NCBI GenBank assembly: GCA_947460235.1
Contig: CANHGK010000016.1
Span: 1-62,190, forward strand
Reading direction: 5' to 3'
Source: Paenibacillaceae bacterium
GTDB lineage: Bacteria; Bacillota; Bacilli; Paenibacillales; CANHGK01
Length of the DNA stretch: 62,190 bases
The notes under the pieces were generated by a model, which was given only the letters and a program-made list of their open reading frames with translations, did no database searches and was not told the origin of the DNA. The stretch's first letter is position 1, and each line of letters begins with the position of its first letter. A program made the position numbers and the translations under genes. Below are positions 1-50,549 of this stretch, piece by piece.

Positions 1-1719
1 CACAAAGACTGGATGAACTGGATGCTTGATAGCGTTGGGTTTGACGGTTTCCGGATCGATGCCGTGAAGCATATTAAATTCGATGTGTTCACAAATAAAG
101 CTGGCGATGGGATGTTAGACAAAGTTCGCGCGGCACATTCAACGAAAAACATTTTCGCAGTAGGCGAGTACTGGAATCGTGACCTTGCTTCTTTACAAAA
201 TTATTTGAACTATTCCAACTGGAAAATGAGCTTGTTCGATGTACCATTGCATTTCAAATTTTACGGAATTGGTCAAGGTGGGTTTGATCTTCGCAATTTG
301 AACTCTGGTAACTTAGGTAACCTGAACTACGGTATGAACGCTGTTACCTTCGTTGATAACCATGATACGCAATATGGTCAAGCGCTCTTGTCTCCAGTTG
401 CAGACTGGGCAAAAGGGATGGGCTATGCGTATATCTTGAACCGTACTGAAGGCGTTCCGATGTTGTTCTATGCAGATATGTATGGTTATGACAATCGTCC
501 TGCAACGGCTTCGAATGGTACGTTGGGTGCGGCTAACGGAGTCAAAGGCAATATGATGGATACGATCAAGAAGTTGATGATTGCTCGTACCGCTGCATCT
601 TACGGTAAACAAAACGATTATTTTGATGATGGTGACGTCGTTGGGTTCTCTCGTGAAGGGGTAAGTGATATCGCGAACTCTGGGTCTGCTACAGTTCTTT
701 GTGATAACTACAACTGTGGCGCGGGTACATTAGGTAAATGGATGTTTGTAGGCACAGATGATGCGAAGGATACCTGGAAAAACGTGTTGGGTACAAAAAC
801 AGTTGTTATTCCAGATAATGGTTGGGCGTTCTTCCCAGCTGAAGGCAATGCTTCTGTATATATTGATACTCGTATTACTACAGCTATTCAAGCACCCGGC
901 TACGTGGCACCGAACTATGTTGCATCCGGTCCGGGAGTTGCAACAGCTGCTCCAACAGCAACACCTGCTCCAACGGCAACGCCGGTTCCAGCAGCTACAT
1001 CGACACCTGCTGCAGTTGCAACACCTGCTCCAGCAGCACCTGTAGTTGTAACGAACCAAACGGTAACGGTGTATTTCAAGAAATCAGGTTTTTCAAATGC
1101 AAACATTCACTTCCGTAATACAAAAGATTTGGTTTGGACGACATCACCAGGTGCGAAAATGGATCTTGATGCAGCAACTGGTTACTACAAAGCAACTGTT
1201 ACCATTCCAGATGCTTCACAACTTGAAGCTTGCTTCAACAATGGAACAACATGGGATAGTAATGGTGGATTGAACTACAAGTTTAACGGTAACTCAACAG
1301 TTAACGTAACGGATGGTAAGGTAGTTGCTGGTGTACCAGGATCATCATCAGCTTCATCAGCGGCGCCAGCGGCTGCAGTCGCTACACCAGTACCAGCAAC
1401 AACTGTAACAATCAGCTTTAGCTTAGGTAACATCAGTACGGCATTTGGTGATACAGTTGCAGTTGCTGGTGATTACAACGCTTGGGCAACTTCTGGTACT
1501 GCTGTTACAAAATTGTCGGTAACGGGTGCTTCCGTAGGTTCTTCCAACACATGGACCGGTAAAATTACCGTTCCTGCAAACAAAACGGTGAATTACAAAT
1601 TTATTAAAATCAATTCTGCAGGTGCTGTTACATGGGAATCAGGCTATACGGGTAATCGTACAATTACGGTATCTGCTACGAACCCTGCACTTGTCACCGC
1701 ATCGTGGAATGTGAAGTAA
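1..1719 (+). CDS. Alpha-amylase (GH13), C-terminal part, cut by window edge
   Basis: Secreted starch-degrading alpha-amylase whose N-terminus lies outside the window; the frame is open from base 1. The sequence starts just before the GH13 nucleophile motif FRIDAVKH (Asp codon at 58-60), followed by the acid/base motif GEYW and the transition-state motif FVDNHDTQ, the combination typical of liquefying bacterial amylases (GH13 subfamily 5 type). After the catalytic part comes an Ala/Thr/Pro linker (about 910-1050), a CBM25/26-like starch-binding module (about 1060-1340), a second short linker and a C-terminal CBM20-like module (about 1400-1716). It is a close paralogue of the complete amylase at 9926; protein identity is very high but many catalytic-domain codons differ synonymously. 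Family and role are firm; the CBM family assignments are by eye. Confidence 0.93.
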   Translation, partial: HKDWMNWMLDSVGFDGFRIDAVKHIKFDVFTNKAGDGMLDKVRAAHSTKNIFAVGEYWNRDLASLQNYLNYSNWKMSLFDVPLHFKFYGIGQGGFDLRNLNSGNLGNLNYGMNAVTFVDNHDTQYGQALLSPVADWAKGMGYAYILNRTEGVPMLFYADMYGYDNRPATASNGTLGAANGVKGNMMDTIKKLMIARTAASYGKQNDYFDDGDVVGFSREGVSDIANSGSATVLCDNYNCGAGTLGKWMFVGTDDAKDTWKNVLGTKTVVIPDNGWAFFPAEGNASVYIDTRITTAIQAPGYVAPNYVASGPGVATAAPTATPAPTATPVPAATSTPAAVATPAPAAPVVVTNQTVTVYFKKSGFSNANIHFRNTKDLVWTTSPGAKMDLDAATGYYKATVTIPDASQLEACFNNGTTWDSNGGLNYKFNGNSTVNVTDGKVVAGVPGSSSASSAAPAAAVATPVPATTVTISFSLGNISTAFGDTVAVAGDYNAWATSGTAVTKLSVTGASVGSSNTWTGKITVPANKTVNYKFIKINSAGAVTWESGYTGNRTITVSATNPALVTASWNVK

Positions 1720-1833: not shown

Positions 1834-4800
1834 ATGAACGTTTCCACCAATGTATTATCTCGCGGGCTAAAATGGTTCTTTGCCATCTTCTTTCTCAGTC
1901 TTGCAGCGGTTGTTGTTGCGATGTTGGTCTCGTATCGATCGTCTTCAGGAATCGTACAAGAAAAAGTTGCCTCGACTTCACTAGAAGCGGTTACACAATC
2001 GACGAAACAAATGGATTATGTCCTAAATACGTGGGTTGGACTAACCAATCAAATTCAAATGAATCCTGTGCTTAAAAAGAATATTGAAGTGTATTTTGAT
2101 TCTTCCGTTTCTCGAAATGAATGGTCAAAAGCGAACGTGTCCTCAAGTGATACATTAAATAATTTCTTGGATGTTGACCGATCATCGGTGTATTCCATTG
2201 CATTAATACCTAGAGTAAATTTTACCGAGATGAGCACATCGGGTGATGAGTTTAATGATACAATTTTGCATTCAAGAAACGGTCCAACGATGTCGTTTAC
2301 GAATCAAAGTAAAGCAATCGTTCAATCCATTATTCATGCCGATGGAAGTCCAGTATGGATTGCGCCAATGCAAAAGGGGCCATTCGGTTATTCGTATATG
2401 CCAACATACACACTTGGACGTTTGCTCAAGAATTTAAAAGATCCAAGTCATGAAATGGTATTGCTGATTGAACTAAAAGCATCTGCCTTATTCCAACCAC
2501 TTGGTGAAGTATCACTTGGTGAACGGAGTGGAACATTCATTTCAGATTTCGGTGGGAACAAAATTGTTGATCGTACGATGAATAACTTTGGTGCACCAAT
2601 GCCGATGGCTGACCTGAATCGACTCAAACCAATCGGTCAAAGTTCAGGGGCATGGATTTTTAAGGCGGACGATGGTGAAGCATGGTTGGTACTTCGCGCG
2701 AAATCGAAAGTGAGTGGTTGGTTCGTAACTGGCTATTTACCACTCTCAGAATTGGTTGGGCCGATGGATCAGTTGTTGTCGTGGTCGATTCTTGCAGCGT
2801 GTGCGATGCTCCTTGTGTTTATCCTTGCGTTTATTCTAAGTAGTCGTTTCGCGAAATTGTTGAAACAAATGCAATTCGTAAATCATGAGATTCAAACACA
2901 AAATGATAAGTTAGCGCATATGGATAAATTGAAGAATCAAATCCTTGCAAATACGTCTCATGAACTTCGCACGCCGCTTAATGGGATTATTGGGTTGGCG
3001 GACTCGATGGTGGACGGTGCTACTGGTGAATTAAATGATGTAAGCAAATACAATTTAGGAATGATCATTTCAAGTGGACGTCGGCTATTGAATCTAGTCA
3101 ATGATATTCTTGATTTTTCTAAGCTGCGTTCACATGACATCGAAATGAATTTGCAACCACTTGATTTATATGAAGTAACTGATTTGGTGCTGAATATGTT
3201 TAGGCCGCTTGCCGAACAAAAGAAACTAGGTTTGAACAATGCTGTCTCAAGAAATCTAGCGTCTGTCCATGCTGACCCAAATCGCTTGCAACAAATTTTT
3301 TATAATTTAATTGGGAATGCAATTAAATTTACGCAACAAGGCGAAGTGACCATTTCTGCAAGGTCTTTGGGCGATCGAATGATCATTATGGTTCGGGACT
3401 CTGGCATTGGCATTCCGATGGAAGCTCAAGAGCGGATTTTTGAATCATTCGAGCAGGCAGATGGCGAAGCAACGCGAGTGAATGGTGGTACTGGACTTGG
3501 ACTAGCGGTAACGAAGACGTTGGTAGAATTACAAGGTGGTCAAATTTCGGTAACGAGTATGCCGGGTCAAGGATCGACATTTACATTTACAATTTCCATC
3601 AGCGAACTTCCAGCCGTTCCGCTAACGGAAGCGATGGGGCAGTACGTCCTGAATAAACCGCTTGTTGAGATCAATTCGTTAATCGCAGAACCATATGAAC
3701 AACTGTGTGATACTCAAAGTAAAAAATCTACGAGAATCTTAATTGTGGATGATGAGCCGATTAACTTGCAAGTATTGGAAAATCACTTGATGTTGCAACA
3801 GTATGAGGTGTTTCAAGCGAGTTCAGGACCTGAAGCGCTGGAGTGGTTAACGAATCATGCATTGCCGGATGTGATGGTGCTTGATGTGATGATGCCGGGG
3901 ATGACAGGATTTGATGTATGTCGTGAAATTCGTAAAACGCATCATATGAGCGAATTGCCAATTATTTTACTGACAGCCAAAAACCAAGTGCATGATTTAA
4001 TCACTGGCTTTTCCGTTGGTGCTAACGATTATTTGGTAAAACCTTTTACGAAACAAGAGTTTATCGCGCGCTTAAATATGCACATTCAGCTCGGGAAATG
4101 GAATGCTACGCTTGAGGCAGAAGTGCAAGAACGGACAATGGAAATTCAAAATTTACTGGATCACGTTGGACAAGGATTTTTGAGTTTTGATCGTGGATTA
4201 TTGATTGATGAACGATATAGTTCGGAGTGTAAGCGACTGTTTGGAAAAGAAATTGCCGGAATTAAAATTAGTGAGTTGTTGTTTGAACAAGATGAGTTAT
4301 TGCTCATTAGTTTTCCAGAAATTGTGCATGAATTGTTCGATGCAGTTGAACTCAACAAGCAGGAAATGATTCGGCAGTTGCTGCCTAATGAATTGAATCA
4401 TCGTGGGATTCCGTTGCAATTGGAATATAAGTTGATGAAAAACCCGTCAGGACAAGTCGTTCGCATGATGATGATGTTAACGGATGTTACGGAACAACGT
4501 AGTTTACAAGCGAAAATCGACCATGAACAATCCATTTTGAAAATGATTGTCAAGGCGGTAACGCATCGCGGTGAAGTGCATTCAGTCATTAATGCATATC
4601 GTGAATTTGTACAACAAGGAATCGAACAATGGATCCCGCAAAAAGGTGACGGCGTACGTGAATTACCGGTGCAATTATTCCGAATCATTCATACATTTAA
4701 GGGGAGTTTTGCACAACTTGGGTTTGTATTTGCTCCAAAGCGGCTTCATGAAATTGAATCAGAACTTGCTTCACTAATTCAACACGGCGCGACCGAAGAA

Positions 4801-9925: not shown

Positions 9926-12481
9926 ATGACAATCACCATCCAAAGAAAGACAAGCATTATGTTAGTGATCGCGTTAATCGCAAGCATGATTCCGATGTTC
10001 GCATTGAGCATCCAGCCAGTAGCAAAAGCAGGTACACCGCTTAACTTAACCTCATCACAATATTTCGAGTGGTATGTACCTGATTATCACAATGTTAAAA
10101 ATGCTGATGGCACTGAAGGGTTTTGGAATCGAGTTCGTAATAATGCAAGTGATTTGAAAAACATGGGTATTTCAACTTTGTGGTTACCGCCGGCGTATAA
10201 AGGGATGTCAAATCAAGATGTTGGTTATGGCGTATATGACATGTATGACTTAGGTCAATACGATGTTAATGGTACAGGTGGAGTTGATGGGATCCGTACG
10301 AAATACGGTACGCGTTCCGAATTAGATTCAATGATTTCAACATTGCACTCAAATGGTATTTCGGTACTTGCTGACTCTGTTATGAATCATAAAATTTTGG
10401 GTTCTTGGTCTGGCGACCCAGCTCTAGAATATGTTCAATTAGATAAACGTTGTAACTTATGGGGCGATCGTAACATCTGTGATGCTGGTGGTTCAATGAA
10501 CACATTCACACTTGCAAAATTCCCTGCTCGTATTTCTAAAGGTGCACCTGCTGGAGCTCCTGCTAGCTGGTCATGGACGTTTGATAAAACATGGTTCAAT
10601 GGTTCTGACTGGAGCTGTGATAGCGCTGGTAAAAACTGTGGTAACCCTAAAATGAATAACGGCGGAACTGCTGCTGGTAACTGGGGCGGTAAAGGCTGGA
10701 ACTGGGAAATGGATACGGAATTTGGTAACTTCGACTACTTGATGGGTGCTAACGTAGACTTTAACCTTGCATGGGTTAATACGTACCATGTTGACTGGCA
10801 CAACTGGATGCTTGATAGCGTTGGATTCGATGGTTTCCGTATTGATGCAGTTAAACACATCAAATTTGATGCGATTACAAGCCCTACTGGAACTGGTATT
10901 ATCGATAAAGTCCGCGCTGCTCACCCAGGTAAAAACATCTTTGCAGTAGGTGAATACTGGAACCGTGACCTTGGTTCATTAAACAACTACTTGAATAAAA
11001 CAGGTTGGAAAATTAGCTTGTTCGATGTTCCATTACACTTCAAATTCTTCGGTATTGGTCAAGGTGGATTCGATCTTCGTAACTTGAACAGCGGTAACTT
11101 GGCAAATATGAACTATGGTATGAATGCTGTAACGTTTGTTGATAATCATGATACGCAATATGGTCAAATGCTTTTATCTCCAGTTGCTGACTGGGCAAAA
11201 TCGATGGGTTATGCATATATCTTGACTCGTCAAGAAGGTTTACCTTCCATTTTCTATGCTGACCTTTATGGTTATGACTACCGTCCAGCTGGTGGTTCCA
11301 ATGGTACATTGGGTGCTGCTGGTGGCGTAAAAGGTAATTTGTATGACACAATCAAGAAAATCATGGTTGCTCGTACTGCAGCTGCGTACGGTAAACAAAA
11401 TGATTATTTCGATGATGGCGATGTTGTTGGTTTCTCCCGTGAAGGTGTAAGCGATATTGCAAACTCAGGTTCTGCTACAGTTATTTGTGATAATTACAAC
11501 TGTGGTGCAGGTACACTTGGTAAATGGATGTATATGGGAACTGCTAACATCGGAAAAACATTTAAAAACGTATTAGGTTCTAAAACAGTAGTGGTTCCTG
11601 CAAGTGGTTGGGCGTTCTTCCCTGCTGAAGGAAATGCTTCAGTATATATCAATAGTGCAATCAATGCTGCTATTCCTGCTCCTGGCTATGTAGCACCAGG
11701 CGCTGTTGCAACAGCTGCTCCAACTGCAACACCTGCACCAACTGCAACACCAGTTCCTGCTCCAGTAGTCGTACAAGCTGTAGCAACACCTGCTCCTGTA
11801 ACAGCAGTAGCAATTACAAATCAAACAGTAACTGTGTACTATAAAAAATCAGGTTTTTCAAATGCAAACATTCACTTCCGTAATACAAAAGATTTGGTTT
11901 GGACGACTGCACCAGGTGCGAAAATGGATCTTGATGCAGCAACTGGTTACTACAAAGCAACTGTTACCATTCCAGATGCATCGCAACTTGAAGCTTGCTT
12001 CAACAATGGATCAACATGGGATAGCAATGGTGGTTTGAACTACAAATTTAACGGTAACTCCACAGTTAACGTAACAGATGGTAAAATTGTAGCAGGTGTT
12101 CCTGCATCATCTGCGGCAGTTGCAGCAGCTCCGGTTGCAGCAGTGGCTACACCAGCTCCAGCTGCAACAGTAACGATCAGCTTTAGTTTAGGTAATATTA
12201 GTACAGCATTTGGTGATACTGTTGCCGTAACTGGTGACTACAATGCTTGGGCTACTTCAGGTACTGCTGTAACGAAATTGTCTGTAACAGGTGCATCTGT
12301 TGGTGTAGCGAACACATGGACTGGTAAAATCACAGTTCCAGCAAACAAAGTTGTAAACTACAAATTTATCAAAATCTCTTCCACAGGTGCAATTACATGG
12401 GAATCAATTAGTGGAAACCGTACAATTACGGTAGCTGCTACGAACCCAGCACTTATCACTGCAAGTTGGAACGTGAAGTAA
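9926..12481 (+). CDS. Secreted alpha-amylase (GH13) with two starch-binding modules
   Basis: An 851-aa extracellular endo-acting amylase. A signal peptide ends near residue 35 (hydrophobic core followed by AKA). The GH13 catalytic region runs to about 590, with nucleophile D307 (FRIDAVKH), acid/base E343 (GEYW) and D409 (FVDNHDTQ). An Ala/Thr/Pro linker follows (about 592-630), then a CBM25/26-like module (about 632-725), a second Ala/Pro-rich linker and a C-terminal CBM20-like module (about 750-851). GAGGAGGA sits 8 bases before the ATG. It is controlled by a promoter, a cre box and a c-di-GMP riboswitch directly upstream. It is paralogous to the truncated amylase at the left edge. Substrate class is confident; the exact product profile cannot be read from sequence. 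Confidence 0.96.
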   Translation: MTITIQRKTSIMLVIALIASMIPMFALSIQPVAKAGTPLNLTSSQYFEWYVPDYHNVKNADGTEGFWNRVRNNASDLKNMGISTLWLPPAYKGMSNQDVGYGVYDMYDLGQYDVNGTGGVDGIRTKYGTRSELDSMISTLHSNGISVLADSVMNHKILGSWSGDPALEYVQLDKRCNLWGDRNICDAGGSMNTFTLAKFPARISKGAPAGAPASWSWTFDKTWFNGSDWSCDSAGKNCGNPKMNNGGTAAGNWGGKGWNWEMDTEFGNFDYLMGANVDFNLAWVNTYHVDWHNWMLDSVGFDGFRIDAVKHIKFDAITSPTGTGIIDKVRAAHPGKNIFAVGEYWNRDLGSLNNYLNKTGWKISLFDVPLHFKFFGIGQGGFDLRNLNSGNLANMNYGMNAVTFVDNHDTQYGQMLLSPVADWAKSMGYAYILTRQEGLPSIFYADLYGYDYRPAGGSNGTLGAAGGVKGNLYDTIKKIMVARTAAAYGKQNDYFDDGDVVGFSREGVSDIANSGSATVICDNYNCGAGTLGKWMYMGTANIGKTFKNVLGSKTVVVPASGWAFFPAEGNASVYINSAINAAIPAPGYVAPGAVATAAPTATPAPTATPVPAPVVVQAVATPAPVTAVAITNQTVTVYYKKSGFSNANIHFRNTKDLVWTTAPGAKMDLDAATGYYKATVTIPDASQLEACFNNGSTWDSNGGLNYKFNGNSTVNVTDGKIVAGVPASSAAVAAAPVAAVATPAPAATVTISFSLGNISTAFGDTVAVTGDYNAWATSGTAVTKLSVTGASVGVANTWTGKITVPANKVVNYKFIKISSTGAITWESISGNRTITVAATNPALITASWNVK

Positions 12482-39253: not shown

Positions 39254-39687
39254 TTGCTTGCTATTTCGATACACCTGAAATTATTTTCGAAAAAATTTTC
39301 GCACAACAAGAAAATCAGGAAATATATGAAAAGTTCTTGCATATACTATAGTCCGGTAACGTGTAGTGGAGAGTTTACCGAGACGTACATCCCGGAATTA
39401 ATTCGAAAAGCACGCGATCCCACCTGAGATGATCTGATCAGAATTTTTCGTTGATTTCCAGCATGATTTTCAATATTTCAGTAATTTAATGAGAAAAATC
39501 AAAAAACGTTAATTTTAAGACTCTTTTTGTTGTGAATTTTGAAAATGAAAACAATTTGTTCAAGGTTTTGTCATTTTGAAAACATTTTCATAAGCTTTTC
39601 AATACTATTTTCATGAAAATGAATATGTTATTCTTACATTGCAAGGAAAACAAAGAGTGATTCAGTTCACGAAGGGTGAGAACACTA
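39254..39687 (+). other. Unexplained AT-rich leader with TTTTC/GAAAA motifs
   Basis: This 434-base stretch has no open frame that looks real. Its first part (about 39340-39440) contains possible hairpins (GGTAA with TTACC; CTGA with TCAG) but matches no riboswitch I know. From about 39465 to 39625 it repeats the elements TTTTCA, TGAAAA and TTTTGAAAA, including the 12-base palindrome TTTTCATGAAAA near 39609. It may hold operators or a structured leader for the secreted protein downstream. The ribosome site GAAGGGTGAG is at 39671-39680. Confidence 0.5.
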
Positions 39688-45513: not shown

Positions 45514-46197
45514 ATGAATGAACGAACAAAAGCTGTCATTATTTTAAGTGGCGGATTAGATAGTACGACATGTATGGGTCTTGCTCAAGCGGAAGACCGT
45601 GAGTTATTTCCAATTACGTTCAACTACGGACAACGTCATGTGATTGAATTGGAATGCGCCAAGAAGGTAGCAGCCTATTATGGCGTTGTTGAGCGACTTA
45701 AATTGGTGGAATTGCCATTTCTCAAAGATATTGGCGGTAGTGCGTTAACGGATGAAACCATCGAGGTGCCCCGCGATGAATTGCAAACAGACCGGATTCC
45801 AGTAACCTATGTTCCTGGTCGTAACTTATTGTTTTTGTCACTGGCTGGTGCATACGCGGAAACAATCGGGGCGACGGAACTTTGGATCGGGGTAAATGCG
45901 CTTGACTATAGCGGTTATCCAGATTGTCGGCCTGAGTTTATCGCATCCATGGAAACGGTTTTGGCACAAGCGTTAAAAATGGGGGTTGAAGGAAAACCTG
46001 TGGTGATTCGGGCTCCGTTAATCCATTGGACGAAGGCCGAGATTATTAAACATGGTCTAGTTGTAAATGTTCCATATGAATTAACGACATCATGTTATGT
46101 TGGCAAAGAACAACCGTGCGGTCATTGTGATAGTTGTTTGCTACGCATGAAAGGTTTTGAAATGGCTGGTATGATCGATCCTCTGTTACTCAGTTGA
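45514..46197 (+). CDS. queC: 7-cyano-7-deazaguanine synthase
   Basis: A 227-aa ATP-dependent enzyme converting the QueE product to preQ0. The PP-loop SGGLDSTT is near residue 11, and the zinc-binding cysteines are in TTSCYVGKEQPCGHCDSCLLR near the C-terminus. The start ATG 45514 follows GAGGAGGG. With queE upstream and queF at 29297, only queD of the preQ1 branch is missing from the window. Confidence 0.95.
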   Translation: MNERTKAVIILSGGLDSTTCMGLAQAEDRELFPITFNYGQRHVIELECAKKVAAYYGVVERLKLVELPFLKDIGGSALTDETIEVPRDELQTDRIPVTYVPGRNLLFLSLAGAYAETIGATELWIGVNALDYSGYPDCRPEFIASMETVLAQALKMGVEGKPVVIRAPLIHWTKAEIIKHGLVVNVPYELTTSCYVGKEQPCGHCDSCLLRMKGFEMAGMIDPLLLS

Positions 46198-46219
46198 AGT
46201 TAGATCGGAGTTGCTTTGT

Positions 46220-47344
46220 ATGAGAGTATTACAAGCGCTTTTTTTTCCGCCGGAACAACCGGGTGGTGTTTCTTCGATGATTCCATATGTTCAGAAACGA
46301 TTCGAAGAACTCGGTTGGGAGATGGAATTGTTTTCATTGCCAAAGCGTGTGCGAAATAAGGGGACGATGGATCTACCATTTCATGTGTTGGATATCGGGC
46401 CATATCAACACGACCCCATTGTCGCAAAATACTTGCAAACGTTTCGGGATTATATGTGGTGGTCCGCGATGCGATTGGAAGGAAGAGCGTTTGATTTGAT
46501 TCATGCTCACCATCCAATTGTCGCGATAACGATGAAGTGGTTATATCCGAATACACCCGTCATGGCAACAATACACTCTAGCTATGAAAGGGAATTGTTG
46601 TTAAATAACAAAATAGACCGAGATAGTTTGGCGCATCGTTTTCTGACAGCGATCTATCGTGAATTGGAACTTCAAGTTGATCGGCTAGTGACCGTTTCTG
46701 AATCGTTTCGTACCTATTTACGTCCGTATATGAATAATGTTGATCGGATTGAAGTCTTACCGAATGGTTTTGATGAAAATCGTTTTAAGCCGATGCCACA
46801 TCATAATCCGGTGACTCAGTTGTTAACTGTCTGTCGATTAGTTCCTGCTAAGGGAATCGATGTGTTATTGCGAGCGTGTTCAGCATTAAAAGACAGTGGA
46901 CATTCTTTTGTCCTTCATGTCATCGGTGACGGTCCAATACGCGTGGAACTTGAACAAATGGCTCGTGACCTAAACATTTACGAAGAAATTATATTTTATG
47001 GATATATGCTTCATCCCGAGAATTTCATGCCGTTTTCGGATGTGTTTGTACTACCCTCGCGTGCCGAAGCGTTCGGCTCGGTATTTGCTGAAGCAGCACT
47101 ATGCAAGTTGGCTTTAGTCGGAACCGATGTTGGCGGAATTGCCGAACAAATTCGTCACGGCGAAAATGGTTTGCTCGTGCCAGTGGATAATGTAGAGGCA
47201 TTGACCGATGTTCTCTCGATGTTAATTAATGATCGCAACCAACGAGTTACACTTTCCGAACGAGCATGGCAAGTTGCAATTGATCAATACTCATTAGAAC
47301 GAGTAATGGAACGTCTGACGACGATCTATCAACAGTATTTGTAA
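46220..47344 (+). CDS. Glycosyltransferase family 4
   Basis: A 374-aa GT-B glycosyltransferase: N-terminal acceptor domain (FFPPEQPGGVSSMI, DLIHAHHPIVAI) and C-terminal donor-binding domain (GRV-type VCRLVPAKGIDVLL, and the EX7E block PSRAEAFGSVFAEAALCKL). It transfers a nucleotide-activated sugar to an unknown acceptor, probably an envelope glycan or glycolipid. The start is ATG 46220, 9 bases after CGGAG; a TTG at 46211 abuts that site. Confidence 0.92.
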   Translation: MRVLQALFFPPEQPGGVSSMIPYVQKRFEELGWEMELFSLPKRVRNKGTMDLPFHVLDIGPYQHDPIVAKYLQTFRDYMWWSAMRLEGRAFDLIHAHHPIVAITMKWLYPNTPVMATIHSSYERELLLNNKIDRDSLAHRFLTAIYRELELQVDRLVTVSESFRTYLRPYMNNVDRIEVLPNGFDENRFKPMPHHNPVTQLLTVCRLVPAKGIDVLLRACSALKDSGHSFVLHVIGDGPIRVELEQMARDLNIYEEIIFYGYMLHPENFMPFSDVFVLPSRAEAFGSVFAEAALCKLALVGTDVGGIAEQIRHGENGLLVPVDNVEALTDVLSMLINDRNQRVTLSERAWQVAIDQYSLERVMERLTTIYQQYL

Positions 47345-47368
47345 TACGCTAGGAATCCGATTAAAAGT

Positions 47369-47412
47369 GGGCCTAATCTTCCTGATCTTTAGGGGATTAG
47401 GCCATTTAAATA
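47369..47412 (+). terminator. Possible terminator after glycosyltransferase gene
   Basis: GGCCTAATC pairs with GATTAGGCC around a 17-base loop, followed by ATTTAAAT. The U-run is poor, so this may be only a stabilising hairpin. Confidence 0.55.
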
Positions 47413-47599
47413 AATGTACAGGGCGGCTTATCGATATTTCACCCATCACGTTGAGTTGAAAATGTATATTTCTGAAATTCCTGCTTTGTAATAATATTTA
47501 TTATAGTCAAATATATCAGATTATTTAAACATTTTTGATATGAGCAAAAACATCACAATATTTGCAATTTTGTCATAGACTTTTTCGTTCAGAATGTGC

Positions 47600-47605
47600 T
47601 AAAAT
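47600..47605 (+). promoter_or_regulatory. Probable -10 element
   Basis: TAAAAT at 47600-47605; a -35-like AGACTT lies 17 bases upstream (about 47577-47582) and is weak. Confidence 0.5.
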
Positions 47606-47611
47606 AATGCT

Positions 47612-47627
47612 ATGTAAACGGTTACAG
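47612..47627 (+). promoter_or_regulatory. cre box (CcpA operator)
   Basis: ATGTAAACGGTTACAG matches the cre consensus at 15 of 16 positions, including the palindromic core TGTAAACGGTTACA. It starts 7 bases after the -10 element, exactly the spacing seen at amylase 2. Confidence 0.75.
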
Positions 47628-47703
47628 CATAAATTGTGGAATTTTCTAAAAATGACCATGATTTTAGCTCCGCTGCAACTAAGTGATAGAGAGGAAGAAA
47701 TAT

Positions 47704-48189
47704 GTGAAGTATCGTTTTTGTCCGATTTGTGGTTCCTATTTGAACACAAAAGACAAGTCAAGTTTGCCGTCATGTCCATCGGGTCACTACACTGTACAAT
47801 CTCAACTCGGAGTTGAGGTCGCGCCGATCATTGCACGAAAAGGTGCAATTGTTCTTGAACGCAACAAAGAAGGCGGTTGGAACTTGCCAACAGCGACAGT
47901 ACAAGCTAGTGCATCACCGGTACATACGATTCGTGAATTAACGCAATCTATTGTACTTTGTGAAGTAAACGTTGGGGCGCTCGTTAACTTGCGTAGCACA
48001 AAAAATGCATGCACGTTATTTTATGAAGCAGAACCAGAAAATACCGGTACATTAGCAATCGCACATCAATGGTTTTCGATTGACTCGATCCCTTGGAACA
48101 ACATTACGAACAACGTTCATCGTGAAGTTCTGGTAACTTGGGTTCAACAGCACGTTTCGAAAACACGCACATTGGTCAGTGTTAGCTAA
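47704..48189 (+). CDS. Zinc-ribbon protein with degenerate Nudix domain
   Basis: A 161-aa cytosolic protein. The N-terminus is a zinc ribbon (CPICG near residue 6 and CPSGH near 27). The rest looks like a Nudix fold, but the Nudix box is broken: where GX5EX7REUXEEXGU is expected the sequence has GWNLPTATVQASASPVHTIR then ELTQSIVL, losing the metal-binding EE pair. It is probably not an active pyrophosphatase and may bind a nucleotide or act as a regulator. The start is GTG 47704 behind AGAGAGGAAG. A cre box lies over its expected transcription start. Confidence 0.75.
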   Translation: MKYRFCPICGSYLNTKDKSSLPSCPSGHYTVQSQLGVEVAPIIARKGAIVLERNKEGGWNLPTATVQASASPVHTIRELTQSIVLCEVNVGALVNLRSTKNACTLFYEAEPENTGTLAIAHQWFSIDSIPWNNITNNVHREVLVTWVQQHVSKTRTLVSVS

Positions 48190-48200
48190 TTTAAAAAACT

Positions 48201-48228
48201 CGGGTGGGTAGCCATCCGCTTGTTTTTG
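48201..48228 (+). terminator. Terminator after pseudo-Nudix gene
   Basis: CGGGTGG pairs with CCATCCG (one G-T) around GTAG, followed by CTTGTTTTTG. Confidence 0.7.
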
Positions 48229-48330
48229 CCCAATACATAAAACGTTTGCACGCAAACTTGAACATTCGTACACGGAATGATACAGTAAACACATAATTCA
48301 CACACATCGAATTTACGGAGGTTTACGAAA

Positions 48331-48762
48331 ATGGAAAACATGTATCCAACAATTTTATTAGTACATACTGTTTTTGGTTTGGCATTGATTATTTATTTAT
48401 TATTTCCAGTAGTTATTGCATGGTTGCGCGGTGCTACGACAAACACTCAAGTATCCACATTAAATGTGTTACAGAACATTAATCGGGTCGGACAATTTTT
48501 ATTAATCATACAATTTTTCTCCGGTGGAATGATGATGACTCATGCAAAATATTCAACCATGTGGATGGCTGTTATTACAATACTACTTGTTGCAATCGGT
48601 GCATTTACAGGTATTATGGCAAAACCAATGAAAAATTGGAAGTTAGCGATTGAAACAGGTCAAGATGCTGTGACGTATAACAAAGTTATGATTTTAAGTG
48701 TTTTGAATGCATTGGCATATGCGGTTATTTTATTTATGATGTATCATCCAATGTATCGCTAA
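48331..48762 (+). CDS. Four-segment membrane protein of unknown function
   Basis: A 143-aa protein with four hydrophobic segments (about 7-30, 50-68, 76-97, 119-138) and short basic connecting loops. Motifs such as LLVHTVFGLALIIYLLF and QFFSGGMMMTH could carry haem or metal ligands (His, Met), but I do not recognise the family. TACGGAGG precedes the ATG at a good distance. Its 3' end overlaps the convergent YkvI-like gene by 29 bases. Confidence 0.75.
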   Translation: MENMYPTILLVHTVFGLALIIYLLFPVVIAWLRGATTNTQVSTLNVLQNINRVGQFLLIIQFFSGGMMMTHAKYSTMWMAVITILLVAIGAFTGIMAKPMKNWKLAIETGQDAVTYNKVMILSVLNALAYAVILFMMYHPMYR

Positions 48763-49801
48763 GTTTCGGTAGTGGAATCACAAACACTGCAATGAGCCAT
48801 ACCATGCAACAAATTCCTGCGATGGGATACAAGTACGATACGATCCATGGTAATGGGATAAAACTACATCCAAATAAGATGGAACCAATGATGAAGATTT
48901 CGTTATTGGTTCTTTTTTGTTGAGCTGATTTTGATTTTAAGATGCTAAACAATCCGCATAAAAAGGTAGTGAGTAACTCTCCAAGAACGATCAATTCATA
49001 AACGAGCGAAATGAATTGACCGTGATTTTTCACAAATAGCAAAAGTGGCATTTCATGATGCCATTGTGTTGTACCAAGTAATTGTAATGCTTGACAAGTT
49101 AGCATAATGAGAACGTTTAATATAAGTGAGACCAAAAGTGCGGTTTTGTAATGTTTGTTTGACTGATTTAACTTGATTGCCAATGGGGTTAGTACGCTTT
49201 GAGATAATCCAATATTTAAGCTTGTGTAGATCAATGGATGGATCAATAGATTTGGGTCGAGAACGTCGTCCATCGCTGTGATTGTTTGCCATGTAGGAAA
49301 TGAGAAAAGACTTGTTGATAAATACGGAATGACGAGACCTAAGAAAATGACAAAACCGATACTGATGATGCTACTTGCACTGAGAATAGCAGATAAACCT
49401 TTGGAAACGATCCAACAAGAAATGAGAATAAACAATAGTGCACCAAACCAGCGGGGGATATGCCACTGTTGATTCATTAACGCACCAGCGGCGGATACCA
49501 TCGTCAAATTCATCATCCAAAACATACATTGGGTAATAAGGTTTAAATAGGTTGAAAAGGGTTTTCCAAAATGCAATTCGTTGCGTAACTTCCAACATGT
49601 TTGCTTGAAATACGCTAGCCTTGGTAACATAAAGATCAACACGAAGGAGCAAATGATTGTATTTAAAATGATCATGAAGTACATTTGATTACCAAATCGG
49701 GCAAAAAATCGGATCATTTCTTGTCCGCTAGCAAACCCTGCGCCGACCATCGTGCCGAGTACGGCAAATGTAGCGTGCAACACGGAACCTTCTGGAAACA
49801 T
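48734..49801 (-). CDS. ykvI: YkvI-like membrane protein
   Basis: A 355-aa integral membrane protein with about 10 segments, beginning ATFAVLGTMVGAGFASGQEM, the hallmark of the YkvI family, which is distantly related to amino-acid/cation symporters (the APC-like GAGFASG break in TM1). Substrate unknown. Starts with ATG after AAGGAAGGAGCG. Monocistronic on the minus strand and convergent with the four-segment membrane protein. Confidence 0.85.
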   Translation of the reverse strand: MFPEGSVLHATFAVLGTMVGAGFASGQEMIRFFARFGNQMYFMIILNTIICSFVLIFMLPRLAYFKQTCWKLRNELHFGKPFSTYLNLITQCMFWMMNLTMVSAAGALMNQQWHIPRWFGALLFILISCWIVSKGLSAILSASSIISIGFVIFLGLVIPYLSTSLFSFPTWQTITAMDDVLDPNLLIHPLIYTSLNIGLSQSVLTPLAIKLNQSNKHYKTALLVSLILNVLIMLTCQALQLLGTTQWHHEMPLLLFVKNHGQFISLVYELIVLGELLTTFLCGLFSILKSKSAQQKRTNNEIFIIGSILFGCSFIPLPWIVSYLYPIAGICCMVWLIAVFVIPLPKLSDTLDDTS

Positions 49802-49979
49802 GCAAATCGCTCCTTCCTTAAATCACTGTATGTTTCATGTTTGAGGATCATTCAGTTCTAGTCGTTCGTGATTATGTCAATAATTGTCCGAAAACAGCAT
49901 GGATGTTGAAAAATAACTTGAAAATGCCTAGTTCACTGTGATATTTTTTTCAAAATAGGATGTGTGGAGGTTGAACGGC

Positions 49980-50549
49980 GTGGAGCAATTAAAACAAAAA
50001 ATTCGTGAAGAAGGCGTTATTCTATCCCAACAAGTGCTCTCGCTTGATTCGGTGTTAAATCATCAAATTGATCCGCAACTTATGATGGAGATGGGGAAAG
50101 AATTTGCGGCAAGATATGCAGGAAATCACATCACGAAAATCGTAACCGTTGAATCATCAGGAATTCCGATTGCATTTGCGACCGCATATTTTTTAAACGT
50201 ACCAATGGTATTTGCCCGCAAGAAAAAAACGCGTGTAATGGACGAAGATTCATTGGTAGAACGAGTTCCTTCATTTACAAAAGGCTTTGTGACCGAACTT
50301 GTTATCTCACGAAAAATGGTATTGCCGACCGATCATGTGTTAATCATCGATGATATTTTGGCGAATGGTGAAGGATTAAAAGCATTGCATCGGATGATTG
50401 GAACAATTGGTGCACCGATCGTTGGACTTGGTGTTGCGGTCGAAAAAACGTTCCAAAAAGGAAGTTTAGCATTCAGGGAAATGGGTGTACGCGTTGAGTC
50501 ACTCGTAAAAATTAACTCGTTAGCAGACGGAATTATTCATATGGATTGA
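49980..50549 (+). CDS. xpt: Xanthine phosphoribosyltransferase
   Basis: A 189-aa purine salvage enzyme converting xanthine and PRPP to XMP. VESSGIPIAFATA lies in the xanthine-site region, and the PRPP loop is VLIIDDILANGEG. The sequence follows Bacillus Xpt along its whole length (MEQLKQKI-REEG-VLS at the start). The start is GTG 49980, 9 bases after TGGAGG. No purine riboswitch is recognisable in the leader, unlike B. subtilis xpt. Confidence 0.94.
   Translation: MEQLKQKIREEGVILSQQVLSLDSVLNHQIDPQLMMEMGKEFAARYAGNHITKIVTVESSGIPIAFATAYFLNVPMVFARKKKTRVMDEDSLVERVPSFTKGFVTELVISRKMVLPTDHVLIIDDILANGEGLKALHRMIGTIGAPIVGLGVAVEKTFQKGSLAFREMGVRVESLVKINSLADGIIHMD

Follow-up and report, generated by a model that had tools for sequence, protein, structure and literature searches.

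A non-catalytic zinc-ribbon Nudix protein, predicted from sequence, behind a putative CcpA site in a Paenibacillaceae genome

The window analysed here, a stretch of 62,190 nt (GenBank assembly GCA_947460235.1, contig CANHGK010000016.1) from a Paenibacillaceae bacterium, encodes a 161-aa protein, P0001, which by its alignments is a real non-catalytic zinc-ribbon Nudix protein overlooked by family models. We consider it reasonably probable that P0001 is a stand-alone Nudix pseudoenzyme, probably expressed from a lone transcript, which would bind a ligand or a partner and would be repressed by CcpA. Non-catalytic Nudix domains typically lie within multidomain proteins, according to excerpts of PMC5389931, and a free-standing bacterial example whose ribbon is intact, retained in two families and, it appears, tied to carbon repression, would offer a clean system for studying a non-cutting Nudix role. 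No description of such a dead zinc-ribbon Nudix protein was found in the titles and abstract openings of the open-licence PMC literature.

Gene layout and relatives of P0001

The features of the locus, in window coordinates, are as follows.

47576..47605, + strand: promoter-like site of the extended -10 type (TG preceding the -10), TAGACT - 18 nt - TAAAAT, 9/12 matches
47613..47626, no strand assigned: predicted CcpA site (cre box) TGTAAACGGTTACA, just 3' of the -10
47690..47697, + strand: ribosome-binding-like AGAGGAAG, 6 nt 5' of the GTG start, read from the sequence
47704..48189, + strand: gene of P0001, the non-catalytic zinc-ribbon Nudix protein (161 aa, GTG start)
47719..47787, + strand: zinc ribbon, residues 6-28 (Cys6, Cys9, Cys24, His28), from alignments
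47890..47958, + strand: degenerate Nudix box TATVQASASPVHTIRELTQSIVL, residues 63-85, from alignments; the Nudix helix 72-84 is predicted to persist
48201..48227, + strand: intrinsic-terminator-like hairpin and T-run, from a terminator scan

The span of the initial annotation, 47600-48189, runs from the first base of the -10 to the stop codon. Promoter-like sites were about as frequent in shuffled sequences as in the region (mean 3.3 and 4, respectively), so the assignment of the P0001 promoter rests on its position and context. Terminator-like sites also numbered four, against a shuffle mean of 0.7, and because one such hairpin lies 3' of the gene, P0001 is probably transcribed alone. No Rfam element was detected at the gathering threshold in positions 46000-50200. 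The neighbours in the window are a glycosyltransferase gene (Pfam) and a small membrane-protein gene (read from the open reading frames), and the homologue described below is flanked by genes of glycine cleavage and one resembling lipoate ligase (annotated by reading); no neighbour was conserved between these two genomes.

The family models gave nothing relevant with P0001 alone; its identity became visible only through homologues. None of the Nudix models in Pfam or NCBIfam matched, so automatic annotation can miss such proteins; NCBIfam returned nothing significant, the best Pfam match was EF-hand_12 (E 0.015, below its cut-off) and a PDB sequence search was likewise without significant matches. 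Scanning genome_contigs, viral_contigs and plasmids with P0001 alone retrieved no close relatives. Of 198 genomes of the order, its own left aside, the strongest match (E 2.2e-19) came from the metagenome-assembled genome 'Bacillales bacterium isolate RE-18aug17-241' (G002), a species of another family. This homologue, P0002, is 32-35% identical to P0001 (BLASTP 86.3 bits), scores only sub-cut-off Nudix matches in Pfam and NCBIfam, and retrieved only its own record from genome_contigs.

Relatives with an intact Nudix box are here called active. The active protein L081 of G702 aligned to P0001 with 93.6 bits and 31% identity over 160 positions, and the profile-profile match to active Nudix members had a probability of 99.7% (E 4e-27). 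L081 looks like an ordinary Nudix protein (PF00293, E 7.3e-17), as do the other nearest active relatives, L053-L057, of which L053 reached 55 bits against the NudC model (cut-off 158). A two-sequence profile of P0001 and P0002 found matches at E <= 1e-6 in 34 of the 392 genomes sampled from the order, in 15 of 398 from the class and in 5 of 398 from the phylum, where each count includes the window's own genome and the three samples share genomes. No third dead homologue was found among these sampled genomes (G366, G379, G362 and L187 left out). Of the matches in the order, those of G032, G366, G379 and G362 yielded no additional locus. The G032 match, read from L006, has an intact Nudix box, as do three of the four phylum matches other than the window, the fourth, L187, not being recovered by the pattern; L088 holds an internal stop.

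An AlphaFold model of P0001, for which the alignment comprised P0001, P0002 and ten active viral Nudix proteins, had a mean pLDDT of 83.7 and a pTM of 0.69 and still contained the Nudix helix 72-84. Its best Foldseek match was 3cng, a zinc-ribbon Nudix hydrolase of Nitrosomonas europaea, followed by NudC; comparison by VIA gave Z 16.7 and rmsd 2.0 over 120 residues for 3cng, and Z of about 14 for NudC, NrtR and AraR. The comparison with NudC and NrtR that the initial annotation had set as a check ended in a predicted match to both folds. A control model built from the two dead sequences only had a confidence of 48.8, produced no Foldseek match at E <= 0.001 and had no Nudix protein among the 50 matches listed, so the AlphaFold model cannot count as evidence separate from the homology inference. 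Detectable homology and fold, which together define the Nudix homology superfamily, were both found for P0001 (BLASTP, profile-profile, model), and the alignments make its descent from CxxGH-type zinc-ribbon Nudix hydrolases clear.

Loss of the Nudix active site and retention of the zinc ribbon

The initial annotation described a Nudix box broken by loss of its metal-binding EE pair, and the alignments bear this out. The pair reads QS in both P0001 and P0002 by BLASTP; the register of the box depends on the aligner by one residue, MAFFT placing S-I (P0001) and S-V (P0002) opposite EE, and the EE pair is gone from P0001 in either register. Taking as reference the six nearest active relatives, none of the 11 invariant box positions is retained in both dead proteins (singly, P0001 retains none and P0002 two in the MAFFT alignment), whereas of the 39 invariant positions elsewhere 17 are (Fisher p 0.009). 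The E-U-x-E-E pattern is intact in 42 of 44 aligned proteins, the two without it being P0001 and P0002. In P0001 the first box glycines are missing too, and G (V in P0002) stands in place of the Glu further on in the 'ES' motif, a residue that we take to be a metal ligand. Measured against the enzyme consensus GX5EX7REUXEEXGU with its metal-binding glutamates, P0001 lacks the EE pair and the glycines. The earlier proposal that the protein is probably not an enzyme is well supported at the sequence level: in the alignments the catalytic site is lost, whereas the homology core and the zinc site are retained.

The zinc ribbon had been called intact, and it holds the full CCCH set: C6, C9, C24 and H28 are all retained in P0001 and, in the alignment, in P0002. 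Since the CxxGH or CxxxH form is common to the six nearest active relatives (L081 and L053-L057) and so native to the active subgroup, the ribbon of P0001 is intact and not a damaged CCCC ribbon. It is also where conservation between P0001 and P0002 is densest. A further copy in G002 (C3:46086-46214; L032 about 4087-4332) is 50% identical to residues 1-46 of P0001 and consists of the zinc ribbon alone, with no recognisable Nudix domain behind it.

Among known systems, 3cng, the best fold match, shares with P0001 a zinc ribbon directly before the Nudix domain, and when the nearest active relatives were compared with PDB sequences it again came first. It differs in having a second C-x-x-C in the ribbon and, in the stretch aligned, a retained Glu pair in its box, whereas the ribbon of P0001 has C-x3-H and its catalytic box is lost. 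NudC, the NAD+ diphosphatase of Escherichia coli, shares the zinc ribbon and Nudix fold but is about 257 residues long and carries SQPWPFPxS, the NudC substrate motif, as well as the catalytic box, both absent from P0001. An identification as NudC or NADH pyrophosphatase was rejected because no NudC model matched and the motif is missing from the sequence. DBC1 is a large multidomain eukaryotic protein, unlike the small, stand-alone bacterial P0001 with its zinc ribbon. DBC1-type domains nonetheless share with P0001 a non-catalytic Nudix fold, which excerpts of PMC5389931 describe as predicted to bind NAD metabolites.

The initial annotation had further proposed a ligand-binding regulator. In the NrtR/AraR family an impaired Nudix box is used for ligand binding, as the available part of PMC4666351 reports; the dead Nudix domain of AraR, a protein tied to sugar use, has two or three of its box glutamates missing and binds sugar. 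The box of P0001 is impaired as well, but NrtR and AraR carry a C-terminal winged helix-turn-helix and the N-terminal zinc ribbon of P0001 lies outside the two-domain layout given in that same part of PMC4666351. At 161 aa, P0001 ends in the model with helix 137-154, the final helix of the Nudix fold; no C-terminal winged helix-turn-helix was found, nor any Pfam or NCBIfam family match there above cut-off, and membership of NrtR/AraR was rejected because this domain is absent. By the same token the term 'regulator' is unsupported in that form, and ligand binding is what the AraR precedent would suggest.

The cre box and predicted carbon control

A 15/16 match to WTGNAANCGNWNNCWW was confirmed at 47612-47627 (ATGTAAACGGTTACAG), and its inner cre box, TGTAAACGGTTACA, matches TGWAANCGNTNWCA at 14 of 14 positions on both strands. 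Its 14 bases are letter-identical to the rbsR and yncC boxes of Bacillus subtilis, which control other genes, in Tables 3 and 4 of PMC3463425, where, in the part available, the former is a high-affinity and the latter a low-affinity site. Scored with a matrix derived from 69 published B. subtilis boxes, identical ones excluded, the box ranked second of 62,177 window positions, the first being that of amylase 2. Exact consensus matches genome-wide (12 strand hits at 9 places) barely exceeded the backward control (8), and the motif alone is thus weak evidence; matrix rank, identity to the rbsR and yncC boxes and position are what make the box credible, and by sequence we find it convincing.

The distance from the end of the -10 to the centre of the cre box is 14 nt at the P0001 gene and 14 nt at amylase 2, the equal spacing reported earlier, and 13 or 15 nt at L041 and 12 nt at L043; the same scan found no promoter at L044. 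Five of the nine perfect places are clearly intergenic (open reading frames by reading): three lie 5' of genes with CBM25 starch-binding domains, of which those at L041 and L045 also encode amylase domains, one 5' of a GGDEF-EAL gene (L043) and one 5' of P0001. The ccpA gene of this genome scored 472.6 bits (cut-off 442.35). Both marks of a CcpA/cre regulon, a predicted cre box near a promoter and a ccpA gene, were thus found, and a cre box overlapping the promoter or lying 3' of the start site leads to repression according to the accessible text of PMC3463425.

Upstream of the P0002 gene, a promoter TTGACG-17-TATACT is followed by the cre-like ACAAAGCGCTTTCT, centred 13 nt after the -10. Across the 12,988 positions of its 13-kb stretch no other scores higher, yet the site is weak: at 10.7 bits it falls below nearly all known boxes, has three mismatches to the consensus and is without G2 on the gene strand. 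G002 also has ccpA (469 bits). In the 300 bases 5' of the match, the best cre scores of five active relatives were 7.6, 5.4, 3.6, 0.8 and -0.2 bits, and the best upstream cre-like site of L054, judged by mismatch count only, had two mismatches; no comparable cre box was found upstream of these six. The link to carbon repression drawn in the initial annotation accordingly stands as a sequence-based prediction, resting on the cre box, the ccpA gene, the geometry shared with starch genes and the similar arrangement in a second family, and we regard predicted carbon repression of the P0001 gene as well supported.

Several other loci were also noted. Two amylases of the window (1-1719 and 9926-12481) are similar to each other and carry CBM25 and CBM20 domains; the first is cut by the contig start, and two large hybrid histidine-kinase-like open reading frames (by reading) lie between them. 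At 39577-39590, TGAAAACATTTTCA (14.7 bits, the third-best cre score in the window) lies 5' of a probable secreted open reading frame at 39676, to which Pfam gave no match. At 48237-48250, ATAAAACGTTTGCA (12.0 bits by the cre matrix) lies 5' of the small membrane-protein open reading frame at 48331 and precedes a possible TTGAAC-17-TACAGT promoter (by eye), an activation-type position. The perfect cre site at L043 (G000:C7:64685-64698), 12 nt after the -10 and 5' of the GGDEF-EAL protein, hints at carbon-controlled c-di-GMP turnover.

Constraint, candidate roles and alternatives

The identity between the P0001 and P0002 genes by codon position was 0.45, 0.61 and 0.38, where composition would give about 0.25, and the residues retained in both proteins comprise the zinc ligands, W59, L61, FYE, W123, H139 and W146. 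The terminal branches of the two dead proteins were 4.19 and 3.65 changes per column in the tree. By these alignments the gene looks constrained but fast-evolving, although the very long branches also fit relaxed selection. The full tree united P0001 and P0002 at 100/98. After removal of the box columns (16 of 44 rows), P0001, P0002 and the active L081 formed an unresolved set, and topology tests on the same data gave p-AU 0.228 for P0001 with L081, which was not rejected, and 0.12 for P0002 with L081. A single ancestral loss was dropped because the pairing dissolves without the box columns and the alignment of P0001 to L081, at 93.6 bits, slightly outscores that to P0002, at 86.3 bits.

By alignment, P0001 has retained its fold core and zinc ribbon and lost the metal-binding acidic residues essential for hydrolysis; in the proposed mechanism, with the catalytic acids gone, it should bind without cutting. 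The old substrate cleft could hold a small molecule, either an NAD- or ADP-ribose-type nucleotide or a sugar as in AraR, or P0001 may instead bind a partner protein. On a preferred sugar, CcpA with HPr-Ser-P would bind the cre box, which is observed to overlap the predicted transcription start, and shut the gene off, so that P0001 would appear on starch or poor carbon alongside the amylases. A more specific version, in which P0001, its level set by CcpA, serves as a small stand-alone sensor that recognises a nucleotide or sugar as a sign of carbon starvation, leaves it uncut and relays the state to a partner, seems to us rather unlikely; if true, it would be a sensor of a new kind in a little-known group of Bacilli. 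Inactivation and predicted cre control occur together in both families, and may have been acquired independently.

The gene could instead be decaying, having drifted under weak constraint with no important role after the catalytic site was lost. The very long branches in both dead lineages fit such decay, only 2 of the 44 aligned proteins are dead, with no third among the sampled genomes, and the ribbon-only copy in G002 indicates that decay does happen in this family. Against it stand frames that remain open in two genomes of different families, the common set of retained residues with second codon positions 61% identical, and, in both genomes, a separate promoter bearing a cre or cre-like box, where the nearest active relatives have no comparable box. 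We judge a decaying gene an improbable explanation on balance.

Less probable again are two readings that give the protein another kind of activity. It might still be an enzyme, its fold re-equipped with other acidic residues for a new reaction: Nudix substrates are highly varied, as stated in the part of PMC5389931 available, and P0001 keeps the FYE motif and, under the BLASTP alignment, the R-E preceding the EE position, which P0002 does not. However, the EE pair is lost together with the first box glycines and the ES-motif Glu further on, P0001 and P0002 share no replacement acid in the box, and E52 and E108, found in both dead proteins, also occur in active ones and are not replacements; we think this quite improbable. 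An adaptor that binds nucleic acid or protein chiefly by its zinc ribbon, for which the Nudix fold would serve as scaffold, would agree with the dense conservation of the ribbon and with its survival on its own in the further G002 copy, but the ribbon is conserved in active enzymes too, where it is likely structural, and the Nudix domain also retains motifs beyond the box. We give this adaptor role a similarly small chance, and return to the stand-alone, CcpA-repressed pseudoenzyme as the reading we prefer, with P0002, an open frame that retains the zinc site and has an equally dead Nudix box, as its counterpart in a second family.

Two MutT-like Nudix paralogues, resembling each other and both intact in the box, were also observed about 19 kb apart on one contig, at G000:C1:102038-102391 (L037) and G000:C1:83115-83336 (L039), where the L039 match spans only part of the model.
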